A stretch of DNA of 29,702 nt from positions 1-29,702 of the IMG/VR virus record IMGVR_UViG_3300040811_000940; one strand, written 5' to 3'. A program made the translations under genes and the position numbers. This DNA is from a virus. Below the pieces are notes generated by a model, which saw nothing but the letters and a program-made list of their open reading frames with translations, ran no database searches and was not told the DNA's origin. Below, piece after piece: positions 12,901 to 29,529 of this stretch (positions within the stretch are counted from its first letter, which is position 1; every line of letters begins with the position of its first letter).

Positions 12901-15900
12901 TACAGGCAGGACGATATGGTTCAACAGAAGATGTACAGCAAGTTGAATTTCAACTTAATGACAAAAAGTTTGTAGAGACTTCTCAAGCATTTGAACTTGT
13001 AAAAACATTACCACCTACAAATGTTGACAACCATTACAGAATATTACCAAACGAAGTTTACAGCAAACCAGAAGGTTATGTACATACTCCGTTTCCTACA
13101 AAAGTATTAGATAGAGAATTTGTTAAAACAGGCGGATATGTAAGAAATGAAGATGTCAATTTCCTTGCAGGAGACATTTCAACTTTAACTGGTGTTAATA
13201 TAAACCAAATAGGTTTAGGACAAACAGTTTGGATTACAAATACTGCTAATGATGATTGGGATGTTGCCCAGCTAACAACACCAAATATAAATTGTATTGA
13301 ATTAACTAAGGTTGTAAATATTCCTGTAAATAGAGATTTAACTCCAGGATATATTAGAGTTGAAATTACTACAGACGCATGGGCTGATAATTTAGTCGAT
13401 GTCGAAGATTTTATTGGATTTAAAGCTGCAAATAAATATGACCTTAATGGTCTTTATAAAGTAGCTGCTGTATTATTAGACAAAATAGTAATTGAAATAC
13501 CGTTAGATAACGACATTAATGTATTTGACAGCGAATCGTTTCTTATAGTTAGATTAATTTCTGTTAGGATTCCTACAGTCCCAGAAATTAACACTGTAAT
13601 TGGACAAAATTTATATGAAGGACAAAGGCTCTGGATTGACAAGTATGACGATGACTGGGCAGTATTAGAAAACAGTCCTGCATATTCTAACCAACAAACA
13701 ATTGAAAATCCAGCAGATTACGACAGTACAGATCAAGGGTTTTCTGATAGTATTGCAGTAACAAGTAATAATAATAATGTCTTTGTTTCAGCGCCTAATG
13801 CAGGTAACGGACAAATTTCATATTACAGAAGATCTAGAGATGTAGCTAATTTAAATTTATCACAAGAAATAACTATCGATGAAACTAATTTGTTTAATCC
13901 AGTTAGTTGCGACTTTGGTAAAAGCATAGACGTTTCACCTGATGGCGAATACTTAGTTGTTGGTATTCCAAAAGCAAGTAATATTAAAACTAAGTTAGCA
14001 TATAAAGACGACGGCAATGGTCAACAGACGTTTGATTTCCAACCCGACGCTAGTTATGTTAAGGGTGATATAATACGTTATAGAGAAAGTCTATGGAAAG
14101 CTAATAGAGAAATTTTACCTGAGATAGCTAGTCAGCCTTTTTCAACATTTGACTCTTATATTAACATTGCAAATTCTGCAGATGCAGATAGCACAACACT
14201 AAATTTATTAGTTGCAGGTAATCCTGGGTTAACAAATTATGCTAACACAGATCATATGTTAGTACGTGCTCCTAAAGATCAATATTTAGGAACATCTTTA
14301 GGTGATAGGATTAATTTATTTTGGAATCAACGCAGTTTTTCATATCCGACTTTAGATAATTATATACCGTTTGATGGAGAAATACCAGAACTTAATACTG
14401 CATTTATTACAGGCGAACATACTATTTTGGAAAAAATTGACCACATTATGTTTGTTGATACTTTTGTAACATTGCCTGTAGCGGGTCAACGTATAACTAC
14501 TGACACAGGTAGTGCAGATGTATCCTATGTTGCATTTAAAGGCGACAGTGCAGTTATATATCTTAAAAGTTCAAATGGTATTTTTGATATATCAGGCGAA
14601 CTTTACATTGACGATACTGATTTTGTAGGATTTTATACCGAAGAAGACACATATTCTACATCAAATGCAGTTGGCGGATATTGGCAAATAGCAACACCTA
14701 CATATAATAATAATTCACGTTATTATGATGTAGGAAGAGGGTTAGTGTATGCCGATGTTTTGTTACAATCGTCAGTACGTGACACTAATTTATACTATAA
14801 TGTTCAAGCCACAGTAGGTGATATTGGTTTATATGTAACAAATAAAAATAGGGTTAGCTTTTTATCACACTTGTCATATCGCGGTGATCCAACACCTGCT
14901 GACGGACAAGACGGCGTTGAAGCAGATCAACCAAGTAATAAATGGATAGCACGAGTTGGTAGACAATATTCAGATCAACTTAGTATCGGCGACACTCCAA
15001 CCTTTAATTTTTATAATCTTGATAATAGAGATATTAATTTAGATGCTGCCGGTTTATCTTACGATATTTTAAACAAGCAACATACTGTTATTGATCTATG
15101 GGACGGATATATTGATATAACTCTTAGTGAGTTTGACTTTTCAGGTTTTGCGTTTCAGCCACAAGTTAACGATATAATTGAAGATGTACAAAGTCCAAAA
15201 GATGGACAAGGTGGATTAGCATTAACAACAATTACTACAAGTACAGCATCAGTTGTATATGTACAGCGTAACTTTAATAGTGTTAGATTGTATGTAAAAG
15301 TATTAACTGGTGATTTTGTTGAACAGTCTAATATTGGAAAATATGAAATTAGAAGAAAAGCAAATACTGTACTAAGAGGAGCAACAGATACTGATCGTAT
15401 ATGCGGTACAGTAGAAGACGTAAACAACGATATTGTCGTCCAAACTAGTTTAGTTGGAAAATTAGTAGTCTTTGAACATACTTCTAATTTTAACATTGTA
15501 TCTAATCCTGAAATAATTGATGAAGAATATTCATTCTTTACTGAAGTGACCGAGTCGGGAATATCTAGAAGTTCTAATCCTCCATTTAGTTTAAACAAAG
15601 ATTATACACAAGTGTTTAACATTCCTGCTATGGAATTAGGAATATCTAATGACTTAACAAACGAAGGTGCTGTTGCAATATATAGAAGATTGAATAACGG
15701 CACATATAGAATTAAAGATATATTTGTATCTGAGTATAGAGCAAATAATAGACAGTTTGGTAGCAAAGTTAAGATAGTACAGTCTGGAAATTACTACACA
15801 TTATTAGTAGGAAGTAAAAGCGACAGCGGCATTGCAGAAAATGATTCCGCAGGTAGAAGAACACAGCCAGGGTCAATTGAAATATTCCGCCACGGCGTAT

Positions 15901-18900
15901 CACCGCAGCAAGAATTCCTTGGTGTATATAGACTAAATGCATATTCTAAAGGAGATGTAGTTCTTTATAAAGATGATTATTATGAAGCACTAAAAGATGT
16001 TCCAGAAACTATGAATGAAATATTAAACACAGTTTATTGGAATAAAATTAGTTGGCGTTACGGAAAAGATCCTGAGTTTATGGGCGAGTTTAATAACGCA
16101 TATGCATACAGACAAAATAATATAGTCTCATACGATAATGATTTATGGAAAGCAACAACTAATATTGACGCTGCTAGTGCTGTTCCTTCAAGCACAAATA
16201 ATTCTTGGACATCATTAACTACAAGAATTGACTATGTAGGATATTTGCCAAATTTAACTGCAAATGCATTTTATGATGAAACAGTATTTGATCCGTTAGA
16301 AAATATATTAGAATTTAGTGAAAGTTTTGATGTAAGTGACGATTCGAATGTATTAATCGTAACAACAAAGTTGGCACAGGCTGATAGTACTACTGACTAT
16401 AACATAGTTGTATATAGAGAAATTGATAACAAATATTCAGTATCACAAGTCATACCGGCGCCAGTTGACGGTGATGATTGGGCAAAGTCAGTATCACTAA
16501 GTCCAGATGGAACACAAATAGCAATCGGCGCCCCATTAAACGATGACGTTAAAGTTAATCAAGGCATAGTATATATTTGGACACAAAATAGTGACGGCAT
16601 TTTTAGCCTATCTCAAACAATCAAATCACCTAGTAACGAAGAAAGTGAAAAATTTGGATTTAGTGTTGATTTTGGAAAAGACGATTTACTTATTTCAAGT
16701 TTAAATGGCGATCAAAAAATACCAACAACTTTTGATAAAGATAATGAAATTCAAACTACATTTGATAAAGAGTTTACTACATTTAAGAATACAAAACTAG
16801 ACAAAGGCTTAGTTTATGTTTATGAAAAAATTGGTACTACTTTAGTGTACGGTGAGCAGTTTGTTTATCCAATGACACAAACTACATTTGGTGAAAATGT
16901 TTATTCAGTAAACAATCATGCATATATAGGTGTTCCAACACAATACGTTGATGGCAGAGATCATAAGGGAATTTTACTGAATTATAGGAAGAAACCTAAT
17001 ACAAGGTCATGGAGTATAATAAGTCAGGGTATTACGCCCGTAGATATTAAACAACTTGACGGAGCACTTATTTACAATAAGAGAACCAATAGTATTGTTT
17101 CATACATCGATTATGTTGATATTATACAAGGTAAAATACCAGGTCCGGCTGAACAAGAAATATCTTATAAGTTACCAGCTGATCCTGCGTTCTATAATAC
17201 AGGAACAATAGCTGATCCGTTGGTTGAACCTGATTTAGGATGGACTGACAAGTATGTTGGTAAAGTTTGGTGGAATACCCAAACAGCTAAATTTGTTAAT
17301 CCTTATCAAGGTTCAACAACGTTCCAAAGAGATAATTGGAATAAATTAACACCAAGTTCTGCTATTATTATTTGCGAATGGGTAGAAAGTATTTTCTTAC
17401 CAAGTCGTTGGGATCAATTATCAGGATCAACAGAAGGAACTGCTAATGGAGTAAGCGGAGTGTCGATTTACGGCGACACTAGATATTCTACAAAAATTAC
17501 TTATGATAATATAAGCAAGACATTTAGTAGAAAATATTACTATTGGGTAATTAATAAAAGGACTATTCCAGTTGGCAGAAAACTTAATACTATTACAATT
17601 GCAAATTTAATTTCTAATCCAAGAACTTCTGGATATAAATTTATAAGTTTCTTAGGAAAGGACAAGTTTGTTCTTAATAACTGTAACGATTTAGTACAAG
17701 GTGATGACGTTGTTCTGCAAATTAAATATCACACGTTAGACAAAACTGCACAAAAATATCATAATCAATATAAGTTGTTTGCTGACGGATCTAGCGATAG
17801 TGTACCAGATCCTAGTTTAGAGCGCAAATGGTTTGATAGTTTAATTGGTTTTGACAGTAATGGTAAGGCAGTTCCTGATCCAAACATTCCCGTAAGCATG
17901 AGATACGGCATCCAGTCTAGACCTAGGCAAAGTTTATTTGTTAATAGAACTGAAGCATTAAAACAAGCAGTTGAAAGAATTAATATAGTTTTAAAAGAAA
18001 ACTTAATTACTGACGAATATAATTTAACTAGATTGTCGTATAAAGATGAAATTCCTACAATTAATTCTCAAACATGGGATTTAAGTGTTGACAGTGTAGA
18101 TGAATTACAGTATATTAGTACTAATAAATTGGAGACTGCTGCACTAACTCCTGTTATTGTAAATGGCAACCTTGTAAGAGTTAATATAGATAATTCGGGT
18201 CGTGGATATAAAGCACCTCCTAAAATAAAAGTTATTGGTGCAGGCAAAGATGCAGATATTAAGGTTGAAATTAATAATCTAGGACAAATTACATCGGCAA
18301 CTGTTGTTGATGACGGTATAGGATATAACGATCAAACAACAATCAGTGTTAGACCATTTACAGTACTAGTAACAGCAGATGCTAATATTAATGGTAAATG
18401 GGCTTTATATTCGTACAACACTGGTACCAAAGAATGGTATAGACGAGCATTACAAAGTTTTGATACATCGTTATACTGGGAATATGTAGATTGGTATGCA
18501 GAAGGCTATAATCAATTTACTCCGATTGCAACTAGTATTGAAGGATCTTATCAACTCTTTCCTTTAGATTTAAATATTAACGATGTTGTTAAAATTAATA
18601 ATGTCGGAACTGGCGGTTGGTTATTATTAAGAAAAATTGCTGATGAAAAGACTGAAGATTATACAGTAAATTTTGAAACAATTGGTAGACAAAATGGAAC
18701 GATAAAACTTAAACAAAGTCTTTATAATTTCCTTGAAAATACTGTAGGATTTGATAATAGAAGATTTGATAATACTTTCTATGATAATAATCCTTCTCAA
18801 GAAATAAGAACTATTTTAGAAACTCTTAGAGATAATATTTTTATAGGTAATTTAAAAGTTGAATACAATAAATTGTTTATGTCTTCACTTCGATATTTAA

Positions 18901-21900
18901 TGGCAGAACAACCAACTGTAGATTGGCTGTTTAAAACTAGTTTTGTAAAAGCAAAACATATTAGAGGAACACTAAATCAAGACGATATTACCTTTAACAA
19001 TGACAACTTGTCAAGTTACCAAGAGTTTGTAGAAGAATTTAAACCTTACAAAACTAAACTAAGAGAGTTTGTAAGTAATTATGATGTTCTTGACAATACT
19101 AGTTCTCGAACAACTGACTTTGATTTAAGCCCAGCATATAATGAAGTCACAGGTCGAATTGAATCAAGCACAGCACGTATATTAGACAATGTTATTGTAA
19201 ATGAAAACTTAGATAGTACTGTTAATCCAAGACAAAATTGGAAAAACAATATAGGCCAACAAATAACCGAAATTAAAATCGGCGATGGCGGCAGCGGCTG
19301 GACATTTGAACCAATTGTTAAAATACAAGGCGGCGGTGGCACAGGCGCAACAGCAAAGGCATATCTCGGTTATGGAAAAATAACTAAAATTGAAATTGTT
19401 ACTCCTGGAAGTGGATATACAAGTGCTCCAACTGTTGTAATTGAAGGATCGCAAACCGACGATGGCACTCCTGCAAAGGCAACAGCAGTCTTAGGTAGCG
19501 GATTAGTAAGGTCAACCAAAGTTGCAATGAAGTTTGATCGTAACGCAGGTAGTTATACTTTTGATACACTTGAAGAAACAGAAACACTAACAGGTACAGG
19601 TGCTAGATCAACATACGATTTAATATGGCCGATGGACCTTGATTTAAAGAAAGTTTCAGTTTTAGTTGATGGTGTATTACAATTACGTAGCAAATATACA
19701 TATGAAAATTTTGAAGATACAACAAAAACGTATAATAGAGAAAGAGGCAGAATTAAATTTAATGTTCCTCCTAAACTAAATTCTGTAATAACAGTAAATT
19801 ATTTAAAACCTATAAGTTTATTAAGTGCTGAAGATAGAATTAAATTTGCATACCAACCCGGCGCAAATATGTTTGGTAAAGAGTTGTCTCAGTTACTAGA
19901 TGGTATTGATTATGGCGGAGTAGAAGTACGCAGTTTTGACTTCTCAGGCCCAGCAGGTTGGGATACATCAGGTTGGTATACTGATAATTGGGACACTTTT
20001 GAAAATACATTTGAAGATGAAATTTTTGTATTAGATGGAAGTACAGTTGCTATTGAATTGTCAAAACCTTTAGAAAATACAATTGAGTACAATGTTTACA
20101 GAAACGGTATAAGAATTGACGCAACTGATTTTGTAGCAGGAACACCGGCAGTACCGGGTGTTCCAGCAGTACCTGGTGCGCCAGCAGATGCAGAATACAA
20201 CAATGGTGCATTAATTACTGAGAACAATGGTACAGTGTTTGACAGAGCCTTAACTGTAAACGGATTGAAACTAGTTGTTGCAGGAGCAGTAGGCGGACAA
20301 CTTGCAGTACCAGATGAATGGGCAAAGAAAACTGCAAGAACATTTGAATTAATAACTGATCCTAACGGTGCTGGCATTAACACCACACATCAACGTAACT
20401 TTATTAAAACACTACGTGGTGACGCAGGAACATATCACGCAGGAATACCTGCAATACAAAGAGTTGCATATAACGGTGGTAGTACATATACACCTAACTG
20501 GTTAGAAGATGTTAACGTGGCAAGTTATGCAGGACTACAAGCATTTAATGATAGTGTTGCTCAAAAGGATATGGTATGGTATAAAAATATCAACGGAAAC
20601 AATCCTCCAACACAGCGTAGAGATATTGAAGAAATATTCGAACACGTATTCCACACCGTACACGCATTTGGTATTCCGGGTGCAGTGCCTGGTAGTATAG
20701 ACGCAGTGGAAATGAATCCAGATATTAGAATTAATAATGAACCAAGTTTTGATTGGAAAAACACAGCACTACATTTAGCAATGAAAGAAGCAATTGATGC
20801 AGGATTATATGATCCAAGTGGTTATGCTACTGATTGGAATACAGATCCAGAGAAAGCAGCAGTTGCATACACAGAATACACCTACTTGGTAAACTGGTCA
20901 ATGTGGGATATGAGTGTATACTGGGATGGCGGCAGTCTTAGTCCTGAATGGGATGATAGTTTAAAAACACCAGCAGGTATGTTAGCAAACAACCCATTAG
21001 GTTATGCATTGTTCAATACATACTTTGCCCCAGTGTTGAGCAAACCAGATTTTGCTACAATAGAAAGTATTTTTGGTGAAAATGATACAGGCGTGTCAGG
21101 ATATGTTGTTGATGAATTAGTAGGCGGAACTCCGGAAGTAGCAGCTATTCCGGAAGTTCCGGGATCATCCGCTACTAATCCTAGTGCAACTTGCACTACT
21201 ATTGTAGGTAACGGTGTACAAACTACAATATATCTTGACAATGATGGACTTAATTTAACAAATTTAGTTGATGGCGATGTAATTGCTGTAAGAAAATCTA
21301 CAAGTGATGGAGCAATACAGTTAGATCCAACAAGTTATGATACACAAATTAACGGCGGAGATTTATTATATTCGTCGGCTACTGGTCTAAATGCTGAAGA
21401 CATTGTTGTAGATGGTGACGGATTTGTTACGCCGACAACATCTAAAGGTCCAGAAGAACTTGTACCAGGACAAATACTTGATACGTTAGATATTAAAGTT
21501 TATACTAGAGATAGTGACGGGCAAGGACAAATCTTTAGCCAAAGCTATATTATGGATAGCACATTGACTTATAGTCTTGGCGCACTACCAAGCACTAGTG
21601 ATGCAATATTTGTAAAATTAAACAATCAATTATTACCGAGCACAGATTATACAGTTAATTGGACAGACAAAACTATTACGTTTGCTAGTGCAACAGTAGG
21701 TGCTGAACTTAATATAGTAGCAGCGGCACAAGGAATACAAAGTATACTAGATTTTGGAACGTTAATTACTGACGGAACGTCAGAAGAATACACACTTCCT
21801 ATCAAATATGTAGAAGGAATGCAAGTTTCTGTTACAGTTGACGGTACTCCTAAAACTGTAGATGTTTTAGAAACAGAAACAGTAGGATTATTTGCAGCTA

Positions 21901-23417
21901 TTAGATTTGATGAGGTACAAGATGCAAATAAAACTATTCACTTTACAGCATTTGGTAATTCAGATACTGTAAATTATAGTCAAATTACTAAAGATACATT
22001 TACCGGTAACGGCACGTTAGCTGATTTTGAATTACTACAATCGCCGTTTTACTCAATTCCAACAGAACACAACTTAATTGTAAAAGTAAATAATACAATT
22101 TTAAAAGCAGGATACAATGTTGAATTTGTAATTCCGCAAGCAGGACAAAAAGAATTTGCTGTTGAAACATTCCAGCATCCGTCAGGAAGTCTTGAAGTTA
22201 ATGATATTAAAGTATTCTTAAATGGAATTGAAAAAACTACACCAATTGACTGGAGATTTGAAATTTCAAATAGTAGTATTATATTTGCAGATGATGTAGG
22301 CGTCCCGGGAGATGTTGTTGATATATTTGTAATTACTGACGGTGATTATAGAGTTACAGGCAAAACGGTTACATTTGACACACCCCCTGCATTGGATGAT
22401 ACTATTGAAATATTCCAATTCTCTAATCACAATATAATTGACATTGATAGAATTAACTATGATGTTGTATCTAGAAAACTAATGTCTCCAGATGAATTAG
22501 ATTATGTAAATTATATTAGATTAACAACTGGTGAAATTAGTTTACGCTCGCCTGCTCCTGATGCACAGTATGTTTGGGTATCTGTAAATAACGAATTGTT
22601 AACACCTAGTGTTGATTACTATGTTACTAATGACGGTATGAAAGTAAGATTAATTAGACAACCGTCAACTAACGATAAAATTGATGTTATACATTTTACT
22701 TCTCCTGTAAGTAAGCCTAAATTTGCATTTAGACAGTTTAAAGATATGTTAAATAGAACACACTTTAAGCGTTTAGATGCACCGGCTACTAAATTAGCAA
22801 ATCCGTTAAATTATTATGATTTAAGAATTGAAGTAGAAGATGCAAGTATGTTGTCAGAACCAAATAAGCCTCAAAATTTACCAGGTATTGTTTTTATTGA
22901 CGGCGAACGTATTGAATATTTTGTAAAAGAAGGTAATATATTACGTCAATTACGCAGAGGAACGCTAGGAACAGGAGTTAAAAACTTACATGCAGCAGGA
23001 TCAAAGGTATTTGATCAAAACGTAAGTAAAACTGTTCCGTACACAGATGCTACAATGACACATACGTTTAGAGAAGAAGTTGACGGTGCGCAAACAACGT
23101 TTGCTATACCATTTACAGTTGATTCGGTTAATGAAGTTGAAGTATTTGTTGGCGGAATTAGACAAAGAAAAAATACGTTGGAGGTATTTGATCCAACAAT
23201 AGCACTTGATAGTCCAGAAGGCGATGTTACACATTCGATTGATTTTACTATTAGTGCAAATGCGTTAATACTTACTAATGCGCCTGCAGAAGGAACAGCA
23301 GTAACAGTAGTGAAAAAACAAGGAAAAAGCTGGACAGAGTCGGGTGTATCATTAGGTGATTCAAAAAATGCAATATCTAGATTCTTACGTGCCGGCACAA
23401 CAGAGCTACCTGAATAA
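6957..23417 (+). CDS. Giant modular virion structural protein (5486 residues), probable outer baseplate/fibre scaffold
   Basis: One open frame without internal stops. ATG overlaps the gp6 stop and GGAGG lies at 6940-6944. Modules by approximate residue: 1-150, conserved N-terminal region (SDFLPAFFRTKANKKFL; WNPNIDWDKFVNFREYYWL); 190-310, cupredoxin-like beta-sandwich; 752-800 and 973-1030, beta repeats of the form VxVFVNxxxL; 1259-1400, Trp-rich segment (RPHSHPWEIQGF, WWNTVYGPAPYTS); five CBM5/12-like units between 1589 and 3087; seven FG-GAP-like blades from 2263 to 3345; two GxGY blocks near 3742-3801 and 4103-4186; an alpha-rich insertion at 4394-4738; beta repeats to 5462 with a conserved GERIEYF...LRRGTLGT segment at 5295-5345. 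It sits where T4 encodes gp7 and other wedge genes. The family appears, from memory, in marine T4-like phages as a virion structural protein; I cannot equate it with gp7. Very few Cys and no membrane segment. Confidence 0.85.
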   Translation: MAYNDDQNVSPLPVPGKDNKITASDFLPAFFRTKANKKFLQATLDQLIQPGVAEKINGYYGRKTAKAYKPTDNYVADVSKNREDYQFEPAVVIKDNYDNVTFYKDYNDYMGQLNVFGANTDNHSRINSQETYGWNPNIDWDKFVNFREYYWLPTGPLSIPVRGQSREIVSTYTVTTEDQGDNIAYVFNDGLTRNPSLKLYRGQTYRFEINTPGHPLAFAITRNFTPGSAVLTAGNEGIRGEGLFDAVLYGNEYDQGEYIVLPSSGSVTFEADDNVSTLYPDGIRKLGDDGEEVAVAYIEKGTIEFTIPANAPDRLYYISKNEIDTSGLFKIYDIEENSFLNVTDEILGKKTYKSANGVELSNGMQIRFQGDTEPAFYNQNNWYVEGVGDKIKLIKDQDLIIPAVYSENKTVPFDSEEFDTLPFSNAGNYAANKDYIVINRASQDRNAWSRYNCWHHKDVILASYEYNNISENLDESKRALRPIIEFEAGLKLNNFGASAKQDVDLIDTYTTDVFSTIEGQIGYNIDGIDLAEGMRILFTADTDIRVSGKIFKVKYVDIGNNRQISLIETSDTNPIDLETILVTQGLVNAGKSYHYHGDAWVIAQEKTKTNQQPLFEVCDNAGNSYSDPVYYPQTDFKGTKLFSYAVGEGNVDTELGFPLSYRNIDNSGDILFSFDLLNDTFEYELNNSVINGSINAGYLKKYKTLSTFDYANGFSSTPQKSKQFVVKEYTATDLKFNNFDIDVYDESSSITDLKVAVFVNNKIKLKNTDYIINTDNKLAQIQFTTDLAVNDIVKIKTDSKKVKNSNGYYEFPYNLERNPLNEDITQFTLGEVIDHVDSMLEDLPNFTGKFLGPNNLRDLGDLDRYGKRFVKHSGPLNLPLYHITSKDFNIVKAVKYAKTEYAKYKRNFIETATNLGFDGATKTHVDLVLSTINKDKVKTQPFYFSDMIPYGSSNRIEYAVLDSRTKDYPLTDSFTLDSLQPKGLLVYLNQSLLTHGKDYNFNNLGYITITANQKENDIIEIYEYESSDGSFIAPTPSKLGLYPKYHPMVVIDDTVQPKYPLDPNVAGPYKIYGQIEATSKENVSTEAIGWTYPIYTSKAVAKSMSTDGKAHTITFNGLNTLLYIPNINSTQVILGNDDVEINEYPIGVAFVKGHDGSYIKAYKDYRDHLLLEFEKRIYNNIKVEYSNNRLDVNHFIGGEYKTNDFSRQDINNALLTDFQQWLQTSLNNQNFSNNTFYDRNNDWTFNYSDTNSPNGNENPGFWRGIYQHAYDTDRPHSHPWEIQGFSSKPFWWNTVYGPAPYTSDNLILWKNIEEGRIANPNNTTVDEKVARPGITRHLPVSQDGSLLSPLRSGYVQDFVLNRTVRNFKFGDQSPVENAWRKSSEYPFAVMKAMLVNNPAKTMGLGFDVSRITRNLVGQWTYTETNKQIVIKDFLVPNTNESTLRTMTSGFVNYIYNLVASDILTVYNSYQNDLKNLDNQIGLKIAGFTSKENFNLILDSRSPTQSLTRDGIFIPQENYQVFLNTSSATELATYSGVIIEKADVGYVLRGYSIEKPYFEYYETVPGSSFYEVTVGGRNVRASEFASNAEYRSGEVIFAGNNYFRAVNNFITGGSIDKTFDANTVKLPALPIEGGRTAKFKKDFRRTNVKKLSYGAKFNTVQDTVDFLLGYAARLEDIGFNFDKFDSEANVVENWNTSTKEFMYWTTQGWAATALIALSPGANFLKFKKDYHVVDDIKDAFYGYSILKASGEFLDSDFSSLLRNENSFGIEITNTDDGLYHASLPLVQKEHVVLLDNKTVFNDTIYNPSTGYRQERIRVNGYRSDNWNGGLNIPGFIFDDAKYGDWEKWKDYTIGDLVKYKQFYYVALRNVIGEEKFNPNFWYRLNEKPVSELITNFDYRINQFADFYDLDSDNFDSEQQKMAQHLFGYQKRQYLANIINDDVSQYKFYRGAISDKGTMRVFTNLFDALGNTQDTLEFYEEWAIQAGRYGSTEDVQQVEFQLNDKKFVETSQAFELVKTLPPTNVDNHYRILPNEVYSKPEGYVHTPFPTKVLDREFVKTGGYVRNEDVNFLAGDISTLTGVNINQIGLGQTVWITNTANDDWDVAQLTTPNINCIELTKVVNIPVNRDLTPGYIRVEITTDAWADNLVDVEDFIGFKAANKYDLNGLYKVAAVLLDKIVIEIPLDNDINVFDSESFLIVRLISVRIPTVPEINTVIGQNLYEGQRLWIDKYDDDWAVLENSPAYSNQQTIENPADYDSTDQGFSDSIAVTSNNNNVFVSAPNAGNGQISYYRRSRDVANLNLSQEITIDETNLFNPVSCDFGKSIDVSPDGEYLVVGIPKASNIKTKLAYKDDGNGQQTFDFQPDASYVKGDIIRYRESLWKANREILPEIASQPFSTFDSYINIANSADADSTTLNLLVAGNPGLTNYANTDHMLVRAPKDQYLGTSLGDRINLFWNQRSFSYPTLDNYIPFDGEIPELNTAFITGEHTILEKIDHIMFVDTFVTLPVAGQRITTDTGSADVSYVAFKGDSAVIYLKSSNGIFDISGELYIDDTDFVGFYTEEDTYSTSNAVGGYWQIATPTYNNNSRYYDVGRGLVYADVLLQSSVRDTNLYYNVQATVGDIGLYVTNKNRVSFLSHLSYRGDPTPADGQDGVEADQPSNKWIARVGRQYSDQLSIGDTPTFNFYNLDNRDINLDAAGLSYDILNKQHTVIDLWDGYIDITLSEFDFSGFAFQPQVNDIIEDVQSPKDGQGGLALTTITTSTASVVYVQRNFNSVRLYVKVLTGDFVEQSNIGKYEIRRKANTVLRGATDTDRICGTVEDVNNDIVVQTSLVGKLVVFEHTSNFNIVSNPEIIDEEYSFFTEVTESGISRSSNPPFSLNKDYTQVFNIPAMELGISNDLTNEGAVAIYRRLNNGTYRIKDIFVSEYRANNRQFGSKVKIVQSGNYYTLLVGSKSDSGIAENDSAGRRTQPGSIEIFRHGVSPQQEFLGVYRLNAYSKGDVVLYKDDYYEALKDVPETMNEILNTVYWNKISWRYGKDPEFMGEFNNAYAYRQNNIVSYDNDLWKATTNIDAASAVPSSTNNSWTSLTTRIDYVGYLPNLTANAFYDETVFDPLENILEFSESFDVSDDSNVLIVTTKLAQADSTTDYNIVVYREIDNKYSVSQVIPAPVDGDDWAKSVSLSPDGTQIAIGAPLNDDVKVNQGIVYIWTQNSDGIFSLSQTIKSPSNEESEKFGFSVDFGKDDLLISSLNGDQKIPTTFDKDNEIQTTFDKEFTTFKNTKLDKGLVYVYEKIGTTLVYGEQFVYPMTQTTFGENVYSVNNHAYIGVPTQYVDGRDHKGILLNYRKKPNTRSWSIISQGITPVDIKQLDGALIYNKRTNSIVSYIDYVDIIQGKIPGPAEQEISYKLPADPAFYNTGTIADPLVEPDLGWTDKYVGKVWWNTQTAKFVNPYQGSTTFQRDNWNKLTPSSAIIICEWVESIFLPSRWDQLSGSTEGTANGVSGVSIYGDTRYSTKITYDNISKTFSRKYYYWVINKRTIPVGRKLNTITIANLISNPRTSGYKFISFLGKDKFVLNNCNDLVQGDDVVLQIKYHTLDKTAQKYHNQYKLFADGSSDSVPDPSLERKWFDSLIGFDSNGKAVPDPNIPVSMRYGIQSRPRQSLFVNRTEALKQAVERINIVLKENLITDEYNLTRLSYKDEIPTINSQTWDLSVDSVDELQYISTNKLETAALTPVIVNGNLVRVNIDNSGRGYKAPPKIKVIGAGKDADIKVEINNLGQITSATVVDDGIGYNDQTTISVRPFTVLVTADANINGKWALYSYNTGTKEWYRRALQSFDTSLYWEYVDWYAEGYNQFTPIATSIEGSYQLFPLDLNINDVVKINNVGTGGWLLLRKIADEKTEDYTVNFETIGRQNGTIKLKQSLYNFLENTVGFDNRRFDNTFYDNNPSQEIRTILETLRDNIFIGNLKVEYNKLFMSSLRYLMAEQPTVDWLFKTSFVKAKHIRGTLNQDDITFNNDNLSSYQEFVEEFKPYKTKLREFVSNYDVLDNTSSRTTDFDLSPAYNEVTGRIESSTARILDNVIVNENLDSTVNPRQNWKNNIGQQITEIKIGDGGSGWTFEPIVKIQGGGGTGATAKAYLGYGKITKIEIVTPGSGYTSAPTVVIEGSQTDDGTPAKATAVLGSGLVRSTKVAMKFDRNAGSYTFDTLEETETLTGTGARSTYDLIWPMDLDLKKVSVLVDGVLQLRSKYTYENFEDTTKTYNRERGRIKFNVPPKLNSVITVNYLKPISLLSAEDRIKFAYQPGANMFGKELSQLLDGIDYGGVEVRSFDFSGPAGWDTSGWYTDNWDTFENTFEDEIFVLDGSTVAIELSKPLENTIEYNVYRNGIRIDATDFVAGTPAVPGVPAVPGAPADAEYNNGALITENNGTVFDRALTVNGLKLVVAGAVGGQLAVPDEWAKKTARTFELITDPNGAGINTTHQRNFIKTLRGDAGTYHAGIPAIQRVAYNGGSTYTPNWLEDVNVASYAGLQAFNDSVAQKDMVWYKNINGNNPPTQRRDIEEIFEHVFHTVHAFGIPGAVPGSIDAVEMNPDIRINNEPSFDWKNTALHLAMKEAIDAGLYDPSGYATDWNTDPEKAAVAYTEYTYLVNWSMWDMSVYWDGGSLSPEWDDSLKTPAGMLANNPLGYALFNTYFAPVLSKPDFATIESIFGENDTGVSGYVVDELVGGTPEVAAIPEVPGSSATNPSATCTTIVGNGVQTTIYLDNDGLNLTNLVDGDVIAVRKSTSDGAIQLDPTSYDTQINGGDLLYSSATGLNAEDIVVDGDGFVTPTTSKGPEELVPGQILDTLDIKVYTRDSDGQGQIFSQSYIMDSTLTYSLGALPSTSDAIFVKLNNQLLPSTDYTVNWTDKTITFASATVGAELNIVAAAQGIQSILDFGTLITDGTSEEYTLPIKYVEGMQVSVTVDGTPKTVDVLETETVGLFAAIRFDEVQDANKTIHFTAFGNSDTVNYSQITKDTFTGNGTLADFELLQSPFYSIPTEHNLIVKVNNTILKAGYNVEFVIPQAGQKEFAVETFQHPSGSLEVNDIKVFLNGIEKTTPIDWRFEISNSSIIFADDVGVPGDVVDIFVITDGDYRVTGKTVTFDTPPALDDTIEIFQFSNHNIIDIDRINYDVVSRKLMSPDELDYVNYIRLTTGEISLRSPAPDAQYVWVSVNNELLTPSVDYYVTNDGMKVRLIRQPSTNDKIDVIHFTSPVSKPKFAFRQFKDMLNRTHFKRLDAPATKLANPLNYYDLRIEVEDASMLSEPNKPQNLPGIVFIDGERIEYFVKEGNILRQLRRGTLGTGVKNLHAAGSKVFDQNVSKTVPYTDATMTHTFREEVDGAQTTFAIPFTVDSVNEVEVFVGGIRQRKNTLEVFDPTIALDSPEGDVTHSIDFTISANALILTNAPAEGTAVTVVKKQGKSWTESGVSLGDSKNAISRFLRAGTTELPE
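7524..7886 (+). other. Cupredoxin-like beta-sandwich module within the giant protein (residues about 190-310)
   Basis: Residues 199-214 read LKLYRGQTYRFEINTP, followed by GHPLAF and, about 80 residues later, IEFTIPANAPDRLYYI. This pairing of a strand-turn 'RGQTYxF' with a later 'xFxIPxxAPxxLYYxS' resembles cupredoxin-type or periplasmic copper-protein folds. The Cys and Met ligands of true copper proteins are not evident, so a purely structural role is likely. Fold assignment is by motif only. Confidence 0.4.
11721..11831 (+). other. CBM5/12-like module 1 (residues about 1589-1625)
   Basis: YRSGEVIFAGNNYFRAVNNF fits the start of the chitin-binding type 3 (CBM5/12) pattern, Y-x2-G-[DE]-V-[IV]-x4-x-Y-x-A. 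The usual closing Trp is not obvious, so this is the weakest of the five copies. Confidence 0.35.
12501..12611 (+). other. CBM5/12-like module 2 (residues about 1849-1885)
   Basis: DYTIGDLVKYKQFYYVALRN, then Asn-Pro-Asn-Phe-Trp with Trp1880, matches the CBM5/12 layout of a GD[IV]V strand, an aromatic pair, an Ala strand and a closing Trp after a short loop. In other proteins these domains bind chitin or related polysaccharides through exposed aromatics. Binding here is inferred. Confidence 0.5.
14046..14141 (+). other. CBM5/12-like module 3, at the start of the propeller insertion (residues about 2364-2395)
   Basis: ASYVKGDIIRYRESLWKANR matches the Gly-Asp-Ile-Ile strand, aromatic-x4-Trp and Ala pattern. 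It lies just after blade 2 of the propeller, so it may be displayed on its surface. Confidence 0.45.
15942..16055 (+). other. CBM5/12-like module 4 (residues about 2996-3033)
   Basis: YSKGDVVLYKDDYYEALKDV followed by a closing Trp at 3028 (VYWNKISW) is a close match to the chitin-binding type 3 pattern. It sits between propeller blades 3 and 4. Confidence 0.5.
16101..16217 (+). other. CBM5/12-like module 5 (residues about 3049-3087)
   Basis: YAYRQNNIVSYDNDLWKATT, ending with NNSWTSL (Trp3084), is a second copy in tandem with module 4, separated by about 16 residues. The Asp of the GD strand is Asn here. Confidence 0.45.
18180..18359 (+). repeat. GxGY beta repeat block A (residues about 3742-3801)
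   Basis: Two half-repeats, IDNSGRGYKAPPKIKVIGAG and TSATVVDDGIGYNDQTTISV, share the pattern of a strand, Gly-x-Gly-Tyr, a short Pro- or Thr-rich turn and a second strand. Similar GxGY-x-xxP units occur in other phage structural proteins. The block is related to block B at 19263-19514. Confidence 0.6.
19263..19514 (+). repeat. GxGY beta repeat block B (residues about 4103-4186)
   Basis: KIGDGGSGWTFEPIVKIQGG and EIVTPGSGYTSAPTVVIEGS are two copies joined by a Gly/Ala-rich hairpin. The motifs align with block A, pointing to duplication inside the giant gene. Confidence 0.65.
20136..21170 (+). other. Alpha-rich insertion domain with EHxxH motif, bracketed by Pro-Val-Gly linkers (residues about 4394-4738)
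   Basis: The linker AGTPAVPGVPAVPGAPA (4394-4410) and a related linker GGTPEVAAIPEVPGSS (4723-4738) bracket about 310 residues unlike their surroundings. The interior is rich in helices, Trp and Ala and contains EEIFEHVFHTVHAFG with Glu4562, His4563, His4566 and His4569. It is followed by LHLAMKEAIDAGLY and a segment from about 4615 to 4690 rich in Trp and Tyr. The clustered His/Glu on one helix could bind metal, and I loosely associate this pattern with phage-borne peptidase-like domains, but it is not the standard HExxH zincin order. A catalytic role is unproven. Confidence 0.5.
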
Positions 23418-23437: not shown

Positions 23438-24040
23438 ATGAGCGACAACATGAAAGATACAAATGGAGTAGTAGTGCAAGGACACATTAAAATACATGAT
23501 CCTGAATCTAAAAAAGTTTACGTTGACAAACGTAATGCAATTCACTATGAAAATATGAGTATTGCACTTGCAGAAAGTCTAAGCAATTCAGGACAAGGAT
23601 TTATTAACAAATTAAGCCTTGGTAACGGTGGCACGAGCGTTGATCCTACTGGGGTAATCACATATCTAACACCAAACAGCACAGGTACTAATGCAGGTTT
23701 GTATAATGAAACATATTCAAAGGTTGTCGACGATAGAAGTGTAAACAATACAGACCCTGCTAGGAATAAATTAGAAACTAGGCATGTTGCAGGGACAAAT
23801 TATACTGATATTATTGTAACTTGTTTGCTTGATTATGGAGAACCAAACGGCCAAGATGCGTTTGACACTGCCGCAGCAAGCGATAGTCCTTATGTATTCG
23901 ATGAATTAGGATTGCGCAGCTACAGCACAACCGGCGAAGGAAGATTAATAACCCATGTTGTTTTCCACCCAGTACAAAAAAGTTTGAACAGATTAGTTCA
24001 AATTGATTATACTGTTCGCATACAGAGTTTGGCAGGGTAA
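23438..24040 (+). CDS. Conserved virion structural protein (200 residues), baseplate/fibre-associated
   Basis: Conserved-looking blocks are VQGHIKIHDPESKKVYVDKR, NAIHYENMSIALAESLSN, LSLGNGGTSVDPTGVITYL and, at the C-terminus, VQIDYTVRIQSLAG. I recognise this arrangement, from memory, as a family that accompanies the giant structural gene and the fibres in marine T4-like phages, but I know no defined function and no T4 counterpart. The protein looks mostly beta with no signal peptide or membrane segment. Its position between the giant protein and three fibres suggests a connector, adaptor or small baseplate component. TAGGA at 23425-23429 lies eight bases before the chosen ATG. A downstream ATG at 23450 is possible but has no good ribosome site. 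It ends 13 bases before the first fibre gene. Confidence 0.8.
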   Translation: MSDNMKDTNGVVVQGHIKIHDPESKKVYVDKRNAIHYENMSIALAESLSNSGQGFINKLSLGNGGTSVDPTGVITYLTPNSTGTNAGLYNETYSKVVDDRSVNNTDPARNKLETRHVAGTNYTDIIVTCLLDYGEPNGQDAFDTAAASDSPYVFDELGLRSYSTTGEGRLITHVVFHPVQKSLNRLVQIDYTVRIQSLAG

Positions 24041-24053
24041 AGGGAGTATATAG

Positions 24054-26108
24054 ATGCCATATACAGTAAATTACACTGACATAGTTAACAAAGGTTCGAT
24101 TATTGTTGAAGATAATACATTAAATGATGAAACAAGTTTAATGCTACCGGGCCGTAACACAACAGCATACGGTCAAGCAATTGCAGAAGACTTATTACAC
24201 TTATTAGAAAACTTTGCAAGTCCTAATGCTCCAGCAAAACCTGTAGAAGGACAACTTTGGTATGACACTACACAAAACGTAGATCAGCTAAAAGTTTATG
24301 ACGGTACTAATTGGGTTGCTAGTGGCGGCCTTAAAAAAGCAAGTGCAGAACCGGCAGTTGCAAATTCAAATGCAGGAGACCTGTGGGTAAACACAGAAAG
24401 TCAGCAATTATATTTGTTTACCGGTAGTACTTGGGTACTAGTTGGACCAGACTTTAGTGACGGATTATTAACAGGCGCAGCAGCACAGTCTATAGTTGGT
24501 ACAGACGATGTTACTTATAGTGTGTTATCAATTAAAGTAAAAGATAAGCCGGTTGCTATTGTTAGTAGTCAAGCATTTACACCTAAGACATCTATTACAG
24601 GATTTAGACAAGGAATACAACCAGGAATAAATCTTGCAAATGAAGCAATTGTAGGATTACAAACATTAAAGTTTTATGGTATTTCAGAAAAAGCAGAAAA
24701 CTTAATTGTTGGCGGCGACATAATACCTGCAAGTAATTTCCTAAGAGGTAATGCAGCAAGTACAACAGACTTCCAATTAAGTATTAAAAACAACGATGGC
24801 ATTAAAATTGGTACAGGCGGTCAACTAAGTTTAGGTATTGACGGTGAAACTGGCATTATACAACATAATACTAGCGGTTCAAGTATTGACTTTAGATTAC
24901 GTGAAGGTAATTTAACACCTACTGTATTAAGTATTAATAGTTCAGGCAATATTGGTGTAAACACATCAGCGCCAGAAGAGGCATTTGATCTTAAAGGTAA
25001 TGCTAAAATTTCTCCTAAAACAGGTGAACCGGGCACTGGAGTTTTAAGTGTTGTTAATCCTTTAAATTCAACATCAGTAGGAACTGGTAGTATTGTTACA
25101 ACAGGTGGTTTAGGTGTTGCACTGAACGCCTATATTGGTGGCGATGTAGATATAGGTGGAATTCTATATACAGGAAACATTGTTCCTGATTCTCCAAGTG
25201 TTAGAAATATTGGTACTGTCAATAATAAGTATGACCAAATTTATGCTACTACATTCTATGGAAATATTCAAGGTAACGTAAGTGGTACAGTTTCAGGAAG
25301 AGCTGGCTCAGCAGATAGACTAGCAAGTGCAACAACCTTTGCAGTTGCTGGAGATGTAAATCCTACTAGTTTTGAATTTGATGGACAAACAGGCGGAAGT
25401 ACAAAAACGTTTAATATAAGCATTGCAAATAGTTTTGTTAGTAATAAAGAAACAGTTTTTGCGGCAGAAAATGCAGACGAACTATTAATAAACAGAACTA
25501 CTGGCGTTACAGGTGCATATAAAATATCTAAACGTAATTTCTTAAAAGATATTCCGTTAGTACCCCCAGGCGCAATCATGCCATACGGCGGTGAAGAAGC
25601 ACCAGCAGGTTGGTTATTATGCGACGGCACAGAAGTTTTAAAATCAGACTATAATGAATTGTGGTTAGCAATACAATACAACTTTAAAGATCCGTCATTG
25701 TTAAACAACAACGGAGTTAGTTCTTTTGCACTTCCTGATTTAAGAGGTAGATTTGCAATGGGACTTGATAACATGGGCGGCCCAAGTGCTAATCGTGTTA
25801 CAGATATTGCTGCAGATGCAATTGGCGGGAACGCAGGGACTGAATCTAAAACAATTACTACTAATAACTTACCAGAACACGAACACGATCTAGAAGGTGA
25901 ATCAGGAACACAGTTCTATGGTATACGAGTTGGCGCAGGCGAACCTGTTGACGACAATGCTATTGAACTTCCAATAGAACCTGGACTAGGCGGAACACAA
26001 GGTATCGCTTCAAGCGGCGGCATAAAAACTGAATCGTCAGTTGGCGATCCACTTGATGTTATGAACCCGTTCTTAGCAGTGAATTATATAATTTATACGG
26101 GGCAATAA
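24054..26108 (+). CDS. Tail fibre protein 1 with C-terminal phage tail collar domain (gp12-type)
   Basis: 684 residues. Residues 1-210 are the N-terminal module shared with the next two genes, containing two tandem glycine/tryptophan units (GQLWYDTTQNVDQLKVYDGT and GDLWVNTESQQLYLFTGSTW). Residues about 210-500 are a beta-rich shaft including YGNIQGNVSGTVSGRAGSA near 402. The C-terminus is a tail collar domain: PPGAIMPYGG at 504-513, GWLLCDG with Trp520 and Cys523, LPDLRGRF at 560-567, and HEH at 609-611 before the closing NPFLAVNYIIYTGQ. In T4 the collar-type protein gp12 is the trimeric short tail fibre that binds lipopolysaccharide, and its HxH motif holds a metal ion on the trimer axis. 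Here the protein is likely a trimeric receptor-binding fibre. AGGGAG at 24041-24046 supports the start. The N-terminus differs from gp12, so it is not a simple orthologue. Confidence 0.88.
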   Translation: MPYTVNYTDIVNKGSIIVEDNTLNDETSLMLPGRNTTAYGQAIAEDLLHLLENFASPNAPAKPVEGQLWYDTTQNVDQLKVYDGTNWVASGGLKKASAEPAVANSNAGDLWVNTESQQLYLFTGSTWVLVGPDFSDGLLTGAAAQSIVGTDDVTYSVLSIKVKDKPVAIVSSQAFTPKTSITGFRQGIQPGINLANEAIVGLQTLKFYGISEKAENLIVGGDIIPASNFLRGNAASTTDFQLSIKNNDGIKIGTGGQLSLGIDGETGIIQHNTSGSSIDFRLREGNLTPTVLSINSSGNIGVNTSAPEEAFDLKGNAKISPKTGEPGTGVLSVVNPLNSTSVGTGSIVTTGGLGVALNAYIGGDVDIGGILYTGNIVPDSPSVRNIGTVNNKYDQIYATTFYGNIQGNVSGTVSGRAGSADRLASATTFAVAGDVNPTSFEFDGQTGGSTKTFNISIANSFVSNKETVFAAENADELLINRTTGVTGAYKISKRNFLKDIPLVPPGAIMPYGGEEAPAGWLLCDGTEVLKSDYNELWLAIQYNFKDPSLLNNNGVSSFALPDLRGRFAMGLDNMGGPSANRVTDIAADAIGGNAGTESKTITTNNLPEHEHDLEGESGTQFYGIRVGAGEPVDDNAIELPIEPGLGGTQGIASSGGIKTESSVGDPLDVMNPFLAVNYIIYTGQ

Positions 26109-26111
26109 TAA

Positions 26112-28004
26112 ATGAGTTATCAACTAAACAAAACAAACGGAACATTACTTACAGATTTAATTGACGGACAGATTGATACAAATAGTACTAATCTTGTTTT
26201 AGTTGGTAGAAACTATAGTGGCTACGGTGAATACTTTAATGAAAACTTTATTAAGTTACTTGAAAATTTTAGTAATACTGCTGCACCGAGTAATCCGTTA
26301 CAAGGCCAAACTTGGTGGGATAGTGCAGAATCAAGATTAAAAGTTTATGACGGTAATGCATGGAAATCGTCAGGCGGTCCTTTTGTAGATGATACAAGGC
26401 CTCAAATGGTTGCAGGAGATTTATGGATTGATAATGAAAACAACCAAATGCATGCCTACGACGGCTCCGACTTAATTTTAGTAGGTCCGTTATATACAAA
26501 AAACCAAGGAGTTAGTGGCTTTCAAATTGAAAGTATACTTGATACACAAAGTAGATCACGTACAGTTGCTAATCTATATATTGGCGGCACTTTATCAGCA
26601 GTAATTAGTAACATTCAATTTACGCCAACCTATGCACAAAGAATTACAGGACTTGTTACAGCAGATAACCCAGATGGGATAATTTATCCAGGATTTAATT
26701 TAATTGATCCTGGTAATTTTAAATGGAAAGGTACAGTAGAATCTGCAAATGCTCTAGTTACATCTAGCGGCCAAGTTAGAACAGCTGACTCGTTTTTACC
26801 TTCTACAACTGACGGAGTTACAGTTGGTACATTAACCATACAAAACTCAGGTGGATTAACAATTGGACTTGGACAAAACCATGTGCAAAAAGTTGTTGGT
26901 CCAAGATTTTATTTTGAAAATCAGCTAACTGACCACGATATTAGTATGCGTGTAAAATCAACAGCATTTGGTTCTGTTAGTGTTGATGCAATATATGTAG
27001 ATGCAAGTACAGCTAGAGTAGGTATTTTCAATAGAACAGATGCTGGCGATTTTAGACTACCTGAATATACATTTGATATTCAAGGTGATTTAAGAGTTAC
27101 AGGTAATATGGTAATTGAAGGCGATACAACAAGTGTTGATGTTGCTACATTACGAGTAGAAGATAAAAACATTGAAATTGCTAAGACAGCAGACGGAACA
27201 ACACTAACGGGTGCTAATGCTAACAATGCCGGCTTTGTATTAGATACAAGTGATGTAGGTCAAAAATTATGGACATGGCAAACAACAGCAAATGCATGGA
27301 CATCTAATGTTAATATTGATGTTAGCGATACAACTAAAGCATACAAAATCGGCGGCGTAGATAAACTTACAGATGATACACTTGTAAATGTTACAAAAGC
27401 ACTAGATTTAGACCAAATTGGTACACTTACAGTATTACAAGTTGATGAAATTAATATTAATAGTAAAACTATTAGCTCAACTAACGATATGATCTTAGCA
27501 TCAACGTCGGGTATTTCTATAACAGCATCCGGTGACATTAATATTACTGACAGCCAAAAAATTACTGGCATGGCTGACCCAACTGCTGCACAAGATGCTG
27601 CAACAAAAAATTATGTAGATACACAAATATCTACTGAAGTAATAGCATTTAGTATGGACATTACTGGTTTAGGTGTAGGAGCAACATTAGAAAACAATGT
27701 TGCTGCTTATCTAGGAGATTTATATCCTGCTAATGCAAATAATAACGGAAAAATTGCTCGCATACATACAACATCATATGCAGGGGCTACGGTAGAAGGG
27801 GTTGATGTAGAATCAGCAAAGAATATTTCATTTATTCCTGTTGATTCTAATGGAACACAAAATGAATCAGTTGTACAAAGTGTTACATTTGCTGCTGAAG
27901 GTGCTAGTGGTACAGTTATTCTGTCACCAGCTAGAGCATTAATGCAGTATATATCAAATGGAACAGCTTGGGTAATTGACCAGCCGACATCCAACTATCC
28001 GTAA
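26112..28004 (+). CDS. Tail fibre protein 2, paralogue with repeat-built C-terminus
   Basis: 630 residues. The N-terminal 205 residues match fibre 1 and fibre 3 (LVGRNYSGYGEYFNENF, GQTWWDSAESRLKVYDG, GDLWIDNENNQ). The shaft contains a strand array from residue 325 (GDLRVTGNMVIEGDTTSVDV, then LRVEDKNIEIAK), a common fibre motif, and MADPTAAQDAATKNYVD at 487-503, often found just before a trimerisation or head module. The last 125 residues form a distinct C-terminal domain that I do not recognise. Spacing from fibre 1 is three bases. The ribosome site is poor (CGGGGC at 26099-26103), so expression may depend on coupling to the upstream gene. Likely role: a second adhesin or a fibre segment. Confidence 0.85.
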   Translation: MSYQLNKTNGTLLTDLIDGQIDTNSTNLVLVGRNYSGYGEYFNENFIKLLENFSNTAAPSNPLQGQTWWDSAESRLKVYDGNAWKSSGGPFVDDTRPQMVAGDLWIDNENNQMHAYDGSDLILVGPLYTKNQGVSGFQIESILDTQSRSRTVANLYIGGTLSAVISNIQFTPTYAQRITGLVTADNPDGIIYPGFNLIDPGNFKWKGTVESANALVTSSGQVRTADSFLPSTTDGVTVGTLTIQNSGGLTIGLGQNHVQKVVGPRFYFENQLTDHDISMRVKSTAFGSVSVDAIYVDASTARVGIFNRTDAGDFRLPEYTFDIQGDLRVTGNMVIEGDTTSVDVATLRVEDKNIEIAKTADGTTLTGANANNAGFVLDTSDVGQKLWTWQTTANAWTSNVNIDVSDTTKAYKIGGVDKLTDDTLVNVTKALDLDQIGTLTVLQVDEININSKTISSTNDMILASTSGISITASGDINITDSQKITGMADPTAAQDAATKNYVDTQISTEVIAFSMDITGLGVGATLENNVAAYLGDLYPANANNNGKIARIHTTSYAGATVEGVDVESAKNISFIPVDSNGTQNESVVQSVTFAAEGASGTVILSPARALMQYISNGTAWVIDQPTSNYP

Positions 28005-28008
28005 AAAC

Positions 28009-28016
28009 GATAAATA
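28009..28016 (+). promoter_or_regulatory. Putative late promoter GATAAATA upstream of fibre 3
   Basis: Same octamer as upstream of gp6 at 3389-3396, lying in the 43-base gap after fibre 2 and 31 bases before the fibre 3 ATG. A start near 28022 would leave the AGGGG ribosome site at 28033-28037 in the leader. A weak AT-rich inverted repeat (28020-28033) lies next to it. Confidence 0.5.
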
Positions 28017-28047
28017 ATATAATAGCACTATTAGGGGTTACACAAGA

Positions 28048-29529
28048 ATGGCTTATTCAATTGATAGATATAACAATACACTGTTAACAACAGTGGAGGA
28101 CGGCACAGTTGATCAAACAACTGACCTTAAATTCATAGGTAAAAACTATGCAGGATATGGTGAAATTCAAAATGAAAATTTCCTATTTTTGCTAGAAAAC
28201 TTTAGCGGAGCTAATGAACCAGCAAGACCATTAAGCGGTCAAGTTTGGTTTGATAGCGGTTCAAGTAAATTAAAGTTCTTTGACGGAACAAAATGGCGCA
28301 CAACTGGCGGCGCTGAAATTGGTGCAACAGAACCTACAGGATTAGCAACAGGTGATTTTTGGTGGGATAGTGCAAACGATCAACTTTACGTATTTAATGG
28401 TGTAAGTTTTATTTTAATTGGTCCACAAAACGCAGGCGAAGGTGTAACCCAAATGCAAAGCCGAGAAGTTGTGGATGCTCAAGGCGGAACAAAAAGTATT
28501 ATTACTGCTACAATTGAAGATGAAATTATATTTGTTATTAGCCCGCACGAGTTTGATTTAAACTCAAGTGAAACTGTTGTAAAAGGACAAGGCTATGATA
28601 GATTAAGAAAAGGTATTACACTAAAAAATACTAAAACAGCAACAGGTGGAGTTACAAGTACAGATCATTATTTCTGGGGTACAGCATCGAACGCATTAAA
28701 ATTGGGCGGCATTGATGCAAGTAACTTTATTCAAACTTCAGATGGAAACATTCAGTTTACACAAGGTTTAGAATTACCAGATGCAGGTTTATTAGTCGGC
28801 GATTCAAATGATTTACATATTAAAATTGATGATAACGGTTATGATGGTGTTATTCAAAATGTAACTAACAATAGTAGCATTAAATTTAAAGTTACTACAT
28901 CTGGCGGAACACTTACACACGTAGCAACAATAAACGATAGTACAGTAGTACCAGCAGCGGATAATACATTTTCATTAGGATCAGCAAGTTTAGGCTGGTC
29001 TAATGTTTATGCAGCAAATTTTACAGGCGAAGCATCAACTGCTACTGCACTGAGAGTAGGAAGTGATTTCCGCACTTCGAGTGTTAGTGCATCAAATAAT
29101 ACAGTTGCAGTTAGAGATGCTACAGGAAACATTGCAGCAAACTTATTCCAAGGTACAGCAACTACAGCACGTTATGCTGACTTGGCAGAAAAATATTCTA
29201 CAGCAGAAGAACTTGCTCCTGGCACAGTAGTTTGTGTTGGCAGAGGCGAGGCAGAAGTACAACCAGTTAATTCAGGTTGCATAGCAATTGGTGTAGTTTC
29301 AACTGATCCTGCACTAATGATGAATAGCGATGCAGATGGCCAGTACATTGGCTTAAAAGGCCGACTACCAGTACGTATTGTTGGTTCTGTAAATAAGGGC
29401 GATGCAGTATATGTCAACGATAACGGATGTGCAGGGACTGCAATAAACGGCGGTTCGTTAGTAGGTATTGCCTTAGAAGGTAGCAGCGACGAGGGTGAAA
29501 AGCTAATTGAATGTGTACTCAAAGTATAA
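28048..29529 (+). CDS. Tail fibre protein 3, paralogue with DLAE/PGTVV-type C-terminal domain
   Basis: 493 residues. The N-terminal 195 residues are the shared module (IGKNYAGYGEIQNENF, GQVWFDSGSSKLKFFDGTKW, GDFWWDSANDQLYVFNG). The middle is a beta-rich shaft with FSLGSASLGWSNVYAANFTG near residue 310. From residue 378 (DLAEKYSTAEELAPGTVVCV) to the end is a domain I recall, from memory, as common at the C-termini of marine T4-like phage fibres, with GVVSTDPALMMN and GRLPVRIVGSVNKGDAVYV. Its strand-turn pattern could be a tip domain or an intramolecular chaperone-like module, but no catalytic residues can be named. AGGGG at 28033-28037 supports the start. Confidence 0.85.
   Translation: MAYSIDRYNNTLLTTVEDGTVDQTTDLKFIGKNYAGYGEIQNENFLFLLENFSGANEPARPLSGQVWFDSGSSKLKFFDGTKWRTTGGAEIGATEPTGLATGDFWWDSANDQLYVFNGVSFILIGPQNAGEGVTQMQSREVVDAQGGTKSIITATIEDEIIFVISPHEFDLNSSETVVKGQGYDRLRKGITLKNTKTATGGVTSTDHYFWGTASNALKLGGIDASNFIQTSDGNIQFTQGLELPDAGLLVGDSNDLHIKIDDNGYDGVIQNVTNNSSIKFKVTTSGGTLTHVATINDSTVVPAADNTFSLGSASLGWSNVYAANFTGEASTATALRVGSDFRTSSVSASNNTVAVRDATGNIAANLFQGTATTARYADLAEKYSTAEELAPGTVVCVGRGEAEVQPVNSGCIAIGVVSTDPALMMNSDADGQYIGLKGRLPVRIVGSVNKGDAVYVNDNGCAGTAINGGSLVGIALEGSSDEGEKLIECVLKV

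Follow-up and report, generated by a model that had tools for sequence, protein, structure and literature searches.

The baseplate of phage T4 carries gp10, gp11 and gp12 at its periphery, trimeric proteins that are paralogous in fold and are encoded by adjacent genes following gp6–gp9 (PMC3004832). A different type of tail protein is gp12 of phage ϕ29, whose mature form in the virion, gp12*, ends at residue 691 (PMC6542822), and whose chaperone is absent from the virion according to a review (PMC9863714). We analysed a virus record of 29.7 kb (the window), which contains a baseplate block ending in three tandem fibre genes, F1, F2 and F3. Among isolated phages, those nearest to it are Atu_ph07, Phosso, PA5oct and the RaK2/121Q/GAP32/XaC1 group, with genomes of 286–490 kb. 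A literature search for work on the F1–F3 genes found no paper, and an NCBIfam search returned nothing useful. We consider it fairly probable that F1–F3 are ancient tandem duplicates, and that they are trimeric, fibre-like proteins with specialised roles at the baseplate periphery of a contractile-tailed, jumbo-type marine phage.

Immediately upstream of P4-F1-F2-F3 are the genes of the hub, of a gp25-like and a gp6-like wedge protein and of a giant protein, and the ORFs of the three adjacent fibre genes, listed in an earlier note on this DNA, were confirmed at their positions:

429–2906: hub protein, gp5/VgrG-like, containing an OB domain and, at its C-terminus, a VgrG3-like domain
2922–3362: gp25-like protein
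3421–6957: gp6-like wedge protein
6957–23417, + strand: giant virion protein of 5486 aa in the gp7 position (ORF; context for the baseplate location)
23438–24040, + strand: P4, 200 aa, a conserved neighbour (phrog_11259) and candidate adaptor
24054–26108, + strand: F1, 684 aa, with N-module, shared proximal shaft, own shaft and collar/Gp10_C-type tip (ORF, Pfam)
26112–28004, + strand: F2, 630 aa, with N-module, shared proximal shaft, repeat-built shaft and a C-terminal domain after an AATKNYVD segment (ORF, profile, model)
28048–29529, + strand: F3, 493 aa, with N-module, shared proximal shaft and DLAE domain (ORF, model)

In the hub protein, the domain resembling the C-terminus of type VI secretion VgrG3 (E = 7.5e-31) replaces a lysozyme of the T4 type. 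Homologues of the giant protein, 3857–4555 aa long, occupy the same position in PA5oct, Atu_ph07 and Phosso, and the marine version is at least about one fifth longer than these counterparts.

The shared proximal half and its candidate partner

The three proteins have in common a module at the N-terminus (N-module), about 195 residues long and 35–40% identical:

24054–24638, + strand: N-module of F1, residues 1–195 (window search, shuffles; profile E = 8.9e-53 with F2)
26112–26711, + strand: N-module of F2, residues 1–200 (window search, profile comparison)
28048–28623, + strand: N-module of F3, residues 1–192 (window search; profile E = 2.1e-59 with F2)

When the F1 N-terminus was used as a query against the window, the other two were recovered with E-values of 8e-32 and 4e-30 at 33–36% identity, and profile–profile comparison of the three pairs of modules gave E-values of 1e-50 to 1e-59. 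Local alignment scores between N-termini ranged from 279 to 357, and none of 300 shuffles scored above 69 (Z = 39–60), whereas the C-termini reached Z values of only 1–5 in the same test, which bears out the expectation that the N-termini are more alike than the C-termini. The homology is thus real, but the limit of 195–210 residues originally set for it is too narrow, as profiles extend it to about residue 300. The 100–170 residues that follow the N-module are also homologous in all three pairs, with profile–profile E-values of 6.6e-20 for F1 and F2 (to about residue 367 of F1), 1.1e-15 for F1 and F3 (core at about residues 204–298 of F1) and 1.1e-06 for F2 and F3 (probability 91%). The description of the C-termini as unrelated consequently holds for the distal ends (about residues 440–684 of F1, 370–630 of F2 and 345–493 of F3) but not for the proximal shaft, which is shared. 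The motif given as common to the three N-termini fails in F2 at its QLYxFxG part, which reads QMHAYDG.

Nucleotide similarity among the three genes is nearly lost, with a codon-aligned identity of 50–53%. The third codon positions are only 40–42% identical, which rules out a recent duplication and shows that the duplications are old. Homology at the protein level supports the origin of the three genes by duplication of one gene with a common N-terminal module, as the earlier note had proposed, although the event is ancient.

A docking function of the N-module is plausible. A shared NENF motif prompted comparison with the N-terminal domains of T4 gp9 and gp10, but single-sequence and profile comparisons gave no significant support for this candidate homology (hhalign probability 8–9%; no significant match by hmmsearch). 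A search of solved structures with the three-sequence alignment gave no match. Short pieces of the module (residues ~48–88) superpose on residues 583–623 of CBA120 TSP3 (37 residues, 1.1–1.2 Å) and also on the N-terminal 50 residues of the major tropism determinant; these superpositions are too little for a family assignment. The anchor itself is unreliable in the F3 model, which has a pTM of 0.33 and, over residues 1–50, pLDDT values below 60.

With a mean identity of 79%, P4 is better conserved than any other protein of the cassette, and its gene is located directly upstream of an N-module gene in most related phages examined. With N-modules at their N-termini and P4 encoded beside them, F1–F3 belong to the jumbo-phage N-module gene family. 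A P4 homologue adjoins an N-module gene in nine of the phages examined, and the genomes of XacN1 and RAS14 encode one as well. As a result of this adjacency across phages, P4 is the first candidate for a partner of the N-module. A solved-structure search with the P4 alignment returned nothing significant. In RAS14 and XacN1, P4 has an enlarged form of 398–402 aa. In the records of PA5oct, an ESI-MS/MS mark is attached to the giant protein, to P4 and to the counterparts of F1 and F3, which identifies them as virion proteins in that phage. By analogy with T4 gp10, gp11 and gp12, the common proximal half, composed of the N-module and the first shaft segment, would most likely anchor each protein to the wedge at the baseplate rim, with P4 and the giant upstream protein as the likeliest partners.

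Distal ends of F1, F2 and F3

Three regions of the distal ends could be delineated:

25569–25754, + strand: collar domain of F1, residues 506–567 (Pfam PF07484)
27624–28001, + strand: C-terminal domain of F2, about residues 505–630, candidate receptor-binding end (variability)
29179–29526, + strand: DLAE domain of F3, D378 to V493, with the fold of the ϕ29 gp12-type intramolecular chaperone and a predicted cut between A377 and D378 (fold, Pfam, motif)

The collar domain of F1 was identified with an E-value of 3.6e-14 (52.9 bits, cut-off 24) and is likewise present in eight F1 orthologues; the collar part has a mean identity of 49% among relatives. The match of F1 to Gp10_C is below the cut-off of 27 (19.5 bits, E = 0.0021), while the PA5oct counterpart of F1 carries a Gp10_C domain with an E-value of 9.8e-24 (85.3 bits). 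F1 would represent a gp10-like part with a collar, and is perhaps a plausible receptor binder.

The tip of F2 is the most variable of the three, with a mean identity of 38% and lengths ranging from 119 to 274 aa among relatives. Matches of its C-terminal domain in sequence searches are confined to the AATKxYVD segment. No fold match above chance was obtained, and the domain was not folded alone, so that it is not called a new fold. The variability of the sequence fits a tip that contacts the host, and F2 is the best candidate for this role among the three proteins, from which we infer that it may bind the receptor.

The end of F3 has a more defined relationship. A Foldseek search with the F3 model, in which the DLAE domain has pLDDT values of 83–93, returned ϕ29 gp12 (3suc and 3gqh) as top matches, and structural comparison with VIA, in which gp12 again ranked first, yielded a Z-score of 14.8 for 3suc (r.m.s.d. 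= 2.5 Å over 113 residues) and 14.5 for 3gqh (r.m.s.d. = 2.1 Å over 107 residues). D378 of F3 aligns with residue 692 of gp12, the start of the solved C-terminal fragment and the first residue after the cut, and the sequences at this site are S691-D692-F-A-E in gp12 and A377-D378-L-A-E in F3. The DLAE motif is invariant in 58 of 58 sequences, including those of Atu_ph07, Phosso and PA5oct, and the mean identity of the DLAE part among relatives is 55%. Pfam scores of the domain are mostly under the cut-off: the window F3 matches Peptidase_G2 with 19.8 bits (cut-off 25), 36 of the 58 family members match it (best E = 1.1e-8), and the curated cut-off is exceeded in two of 15 records.

The gp12 fold match, the alignment of D378 with residue 692 and the invariant DLAE motif make self-cleavage before Asp378 the likeliest reading. 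F3 would accordingly fold and trimerise on an intramolecular chaperone of the ϕ29 gp12 type, and this domain, judging from the model, is probably removed by self-cleavage, or is at least an assembly domain; mature F3 would then consist of residues 1–377. The fold alone is no proof of cleavage, as uncleaved capsid cement proteins have it as well. Like them, the DLAE domain could escape cleavage and persist as a trimeric cap or knob on the tip of the fibre. The cement proteins of HFTV1, XM1, Pam3 and T1 and the base of ϕ29 gp8.5 share the fold with Z-scores of 8.5–12.4, and eight of the 58 DLAE members weakly match Phage_cement. The best fold match, however, is the gp12 chaperone, the D-x-A-E sequence of the gp12 cut site does not vary in the family, and, as in gp12, the domain terminates a fibre shaft. 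We regard an uncleaved cap as possible but rather doubtful. The predicted cleavage before Asp378 is the most useful outcome of the analysis. If true, it would change the annotation of the many tail proteins of the DLAE type that marine and Campylobacter phages encode.

Conservation of the cassette and gain of members

Two scans of viral contigs yielded 156 loci, based on the best 80 of each scan, and the results below hold for this lineage rather than for all relatives. Within this set, 73 non-redundant complete loci read P4-F1-F2-F3, and another tip type was not found at any of the three positions in the complete loci. The remaining loci are truncated where the contig ends, contain a split gene, carry an additional gene that separates F2 from F3, or come from isolated phages, which have one or two copies. 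Exactly three copies of the N-module are present in each of eight contigs of 113–201 kb. A tree of 117 N-modules sets F1 and F2 apart, each by a supported branch, and places F3 together with the extra gene (100/99). The first 85–90 residues of the N-module have a mean identity of 65–74% among relatives. In pairs with N-modules more than 80% identical the tips are still homologous, with lowest identities of 0.62 for F1, 0.44 for F2 and 0.50 for F3, and no unrelated tip was found at the same position in close relatives, with the extra F2/F3 gene as sole exception. Divergence of the F3 tip is somewhat decoupled from that of its N-module (rank correlation 0.21), which would fit some recombination.

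Two single contigs have split genes, F2 in L116 (5393–7323) and F1 in L040 (3196–5219), each as two ORFs that are possibly sequencing errors or broken genes. Downstream of F3 there is a second family, whose members begin with DYNxLQxRIxxxLGxGxxxxGYGQ (L054 11507–12601; L163 17518–20741, in tandem; L007 21437–22657); the window ends before it.

The fourth gene between F2 and F3 is found in one group of loci (L054, L055, L059, L061, L066, L135, L142 and L159) and in L163. Its N-module is the sister of the F3 N-module (99/95 support), and in L054 and L055 its distal part has LDGLDS-type repeats and a different end. Three small ORFs of about 150–175 aa accompany the extra gene in one sub-lineage (L054 8484–9918, L055 16022–17468). 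Six tandem N-module genes are present in XacN1 and RAS14 (L169 1522–10578 and L167 7674–16351), and these are one-to-one orthologous between both phages. The encoded proteins have small and quite different end domains and long linkers rich in Thr, Pro and Ser, which are unusual for phage fibres. One gene of these arrays is annotated as a D-Ala-D-Ala carboxypeptidase, an assignment without Pfam support. Judged from these sequences, members with new ends can be added to the family, and the arrays are then kept.

These data bear on the proposal of the earlier note that F1–F3 form a modular receptor-binding set, in which tips are exchanged on a constant docking module to provide three potential host specificities. 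A shared front with different ends is what such a set would display, and the F3-type module joined to a new LDGLDS-shaft tip in one sub-lineage, the diverse ends of the six-gene arrays and the strong variation of the F2 tip all point in this direction. Against it, each position in the complete marine relatives keeps its own homologous tip type, even in the close pairs with the lowest tip identities, and the N-modules group by position; the one-to-one pairing of the six N-modules of XacN1 and RAS14 indicates that those arrays are stable, too. Three receptor specificities are also at odds with the end of F3, which has the fold and motif of the ϕ29 gp12 chaperone, and with the collar/Gp10_C-type end of F1, leaving only F2, and perhaps F1, as plausible receptor binders. 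We therefore judge tip swapping with three specificities to be unlikely and mostly wrong for this lineage. Less probable still is an assignment of F1–F3 to long tail fibres or the neck, with genes that merely lie beside those of the baseplate. PA5oct does have two further N-module genes outside its baseplate block, so that the module is not exclusive to the locus, but the order hub-gp25-gp6-giant-P4-F1-F3 is kept in this phage and its F1 counterpart carries the C-terminal domain of T4 gp10.

The preferred reading, that of specialised baseplate proteins, would start from an ancient tandem duplication of one gene that gave rise to F1, F2 and F3, which were then fixed as distinct parts, like T4 gp10, gp11 and gp12, with host contact falling to the variable tip of F2. 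Proteins with a common front and different ends are not necessarily a sign of fast host-range switching, and here they would belong to old, fixed baseplate machinery.

Comparison with other phages

The closest described arrangement is that of PA5oct gp357–gp359 (also PAC2, MIJ3, Callisto and others), where the giant protein and the P4 homologue are accompanied by one protein with N-module and Gp10_C and another with N-module and DLAE end. PA5oct differs in having no F2, in a module similarity of only ~90 residues and in an overall F3 identity of ~23%. Atu_ph07 and Phosso also encode an N-module protein with a DLAE end directly after P4, which is ~53% identical, but they have one such fibre gene (607 and 626 aa, respectively) instead of three, and extra WxD hairpins in the module. 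In RaK2, 121Q, GAP32, XaC1 and Vibrio 2.275, the gene after P4 encodes a protein that shares the first 75–80 residues, is present in one copy and has an unrelated remainder of ~290 residues.

We tentatively suggest, with less confidence than for the role of F1–F3 themselves, that the first 75–90 residues constitute a widespread wedge-attachment module, which plugs one to six proteins into the baseplates of jumbo phages of the Atu_ph07/RaK2/PA5oct/XacN1 type beside a universal adaptor, P4, and that one of these plug-ins is self-cleaved in the manner of ϕ29, such that the virion would lack part of the fibre. P4 and the N-module would then be a candidate attachment pair in large phages with poorly described baseplates.

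The likeness of F3 to the ϕ29 gp12 chaperone (Peptidase_G2; 3gqh, 3suc) comprises the fold of the DLAE domain and the D-x-A-E sequence at the cut site, while the rest of F3 is unrelated to the β-helix of gp12. With T4 gp10–gp12 the proteins share their arrangement as side-by-side paralogues, and F1 its collar end and weak Gp10_C match. The common part is the C-terminal flower fold in T4, in contrast to the N-terminal half in F1–F3. The best reading, drawn by analogy, is that F1–F3 are counterparts of T4 gp10–gp12 in a tail of the Atu_ph07/RaK2/PA5oct type.
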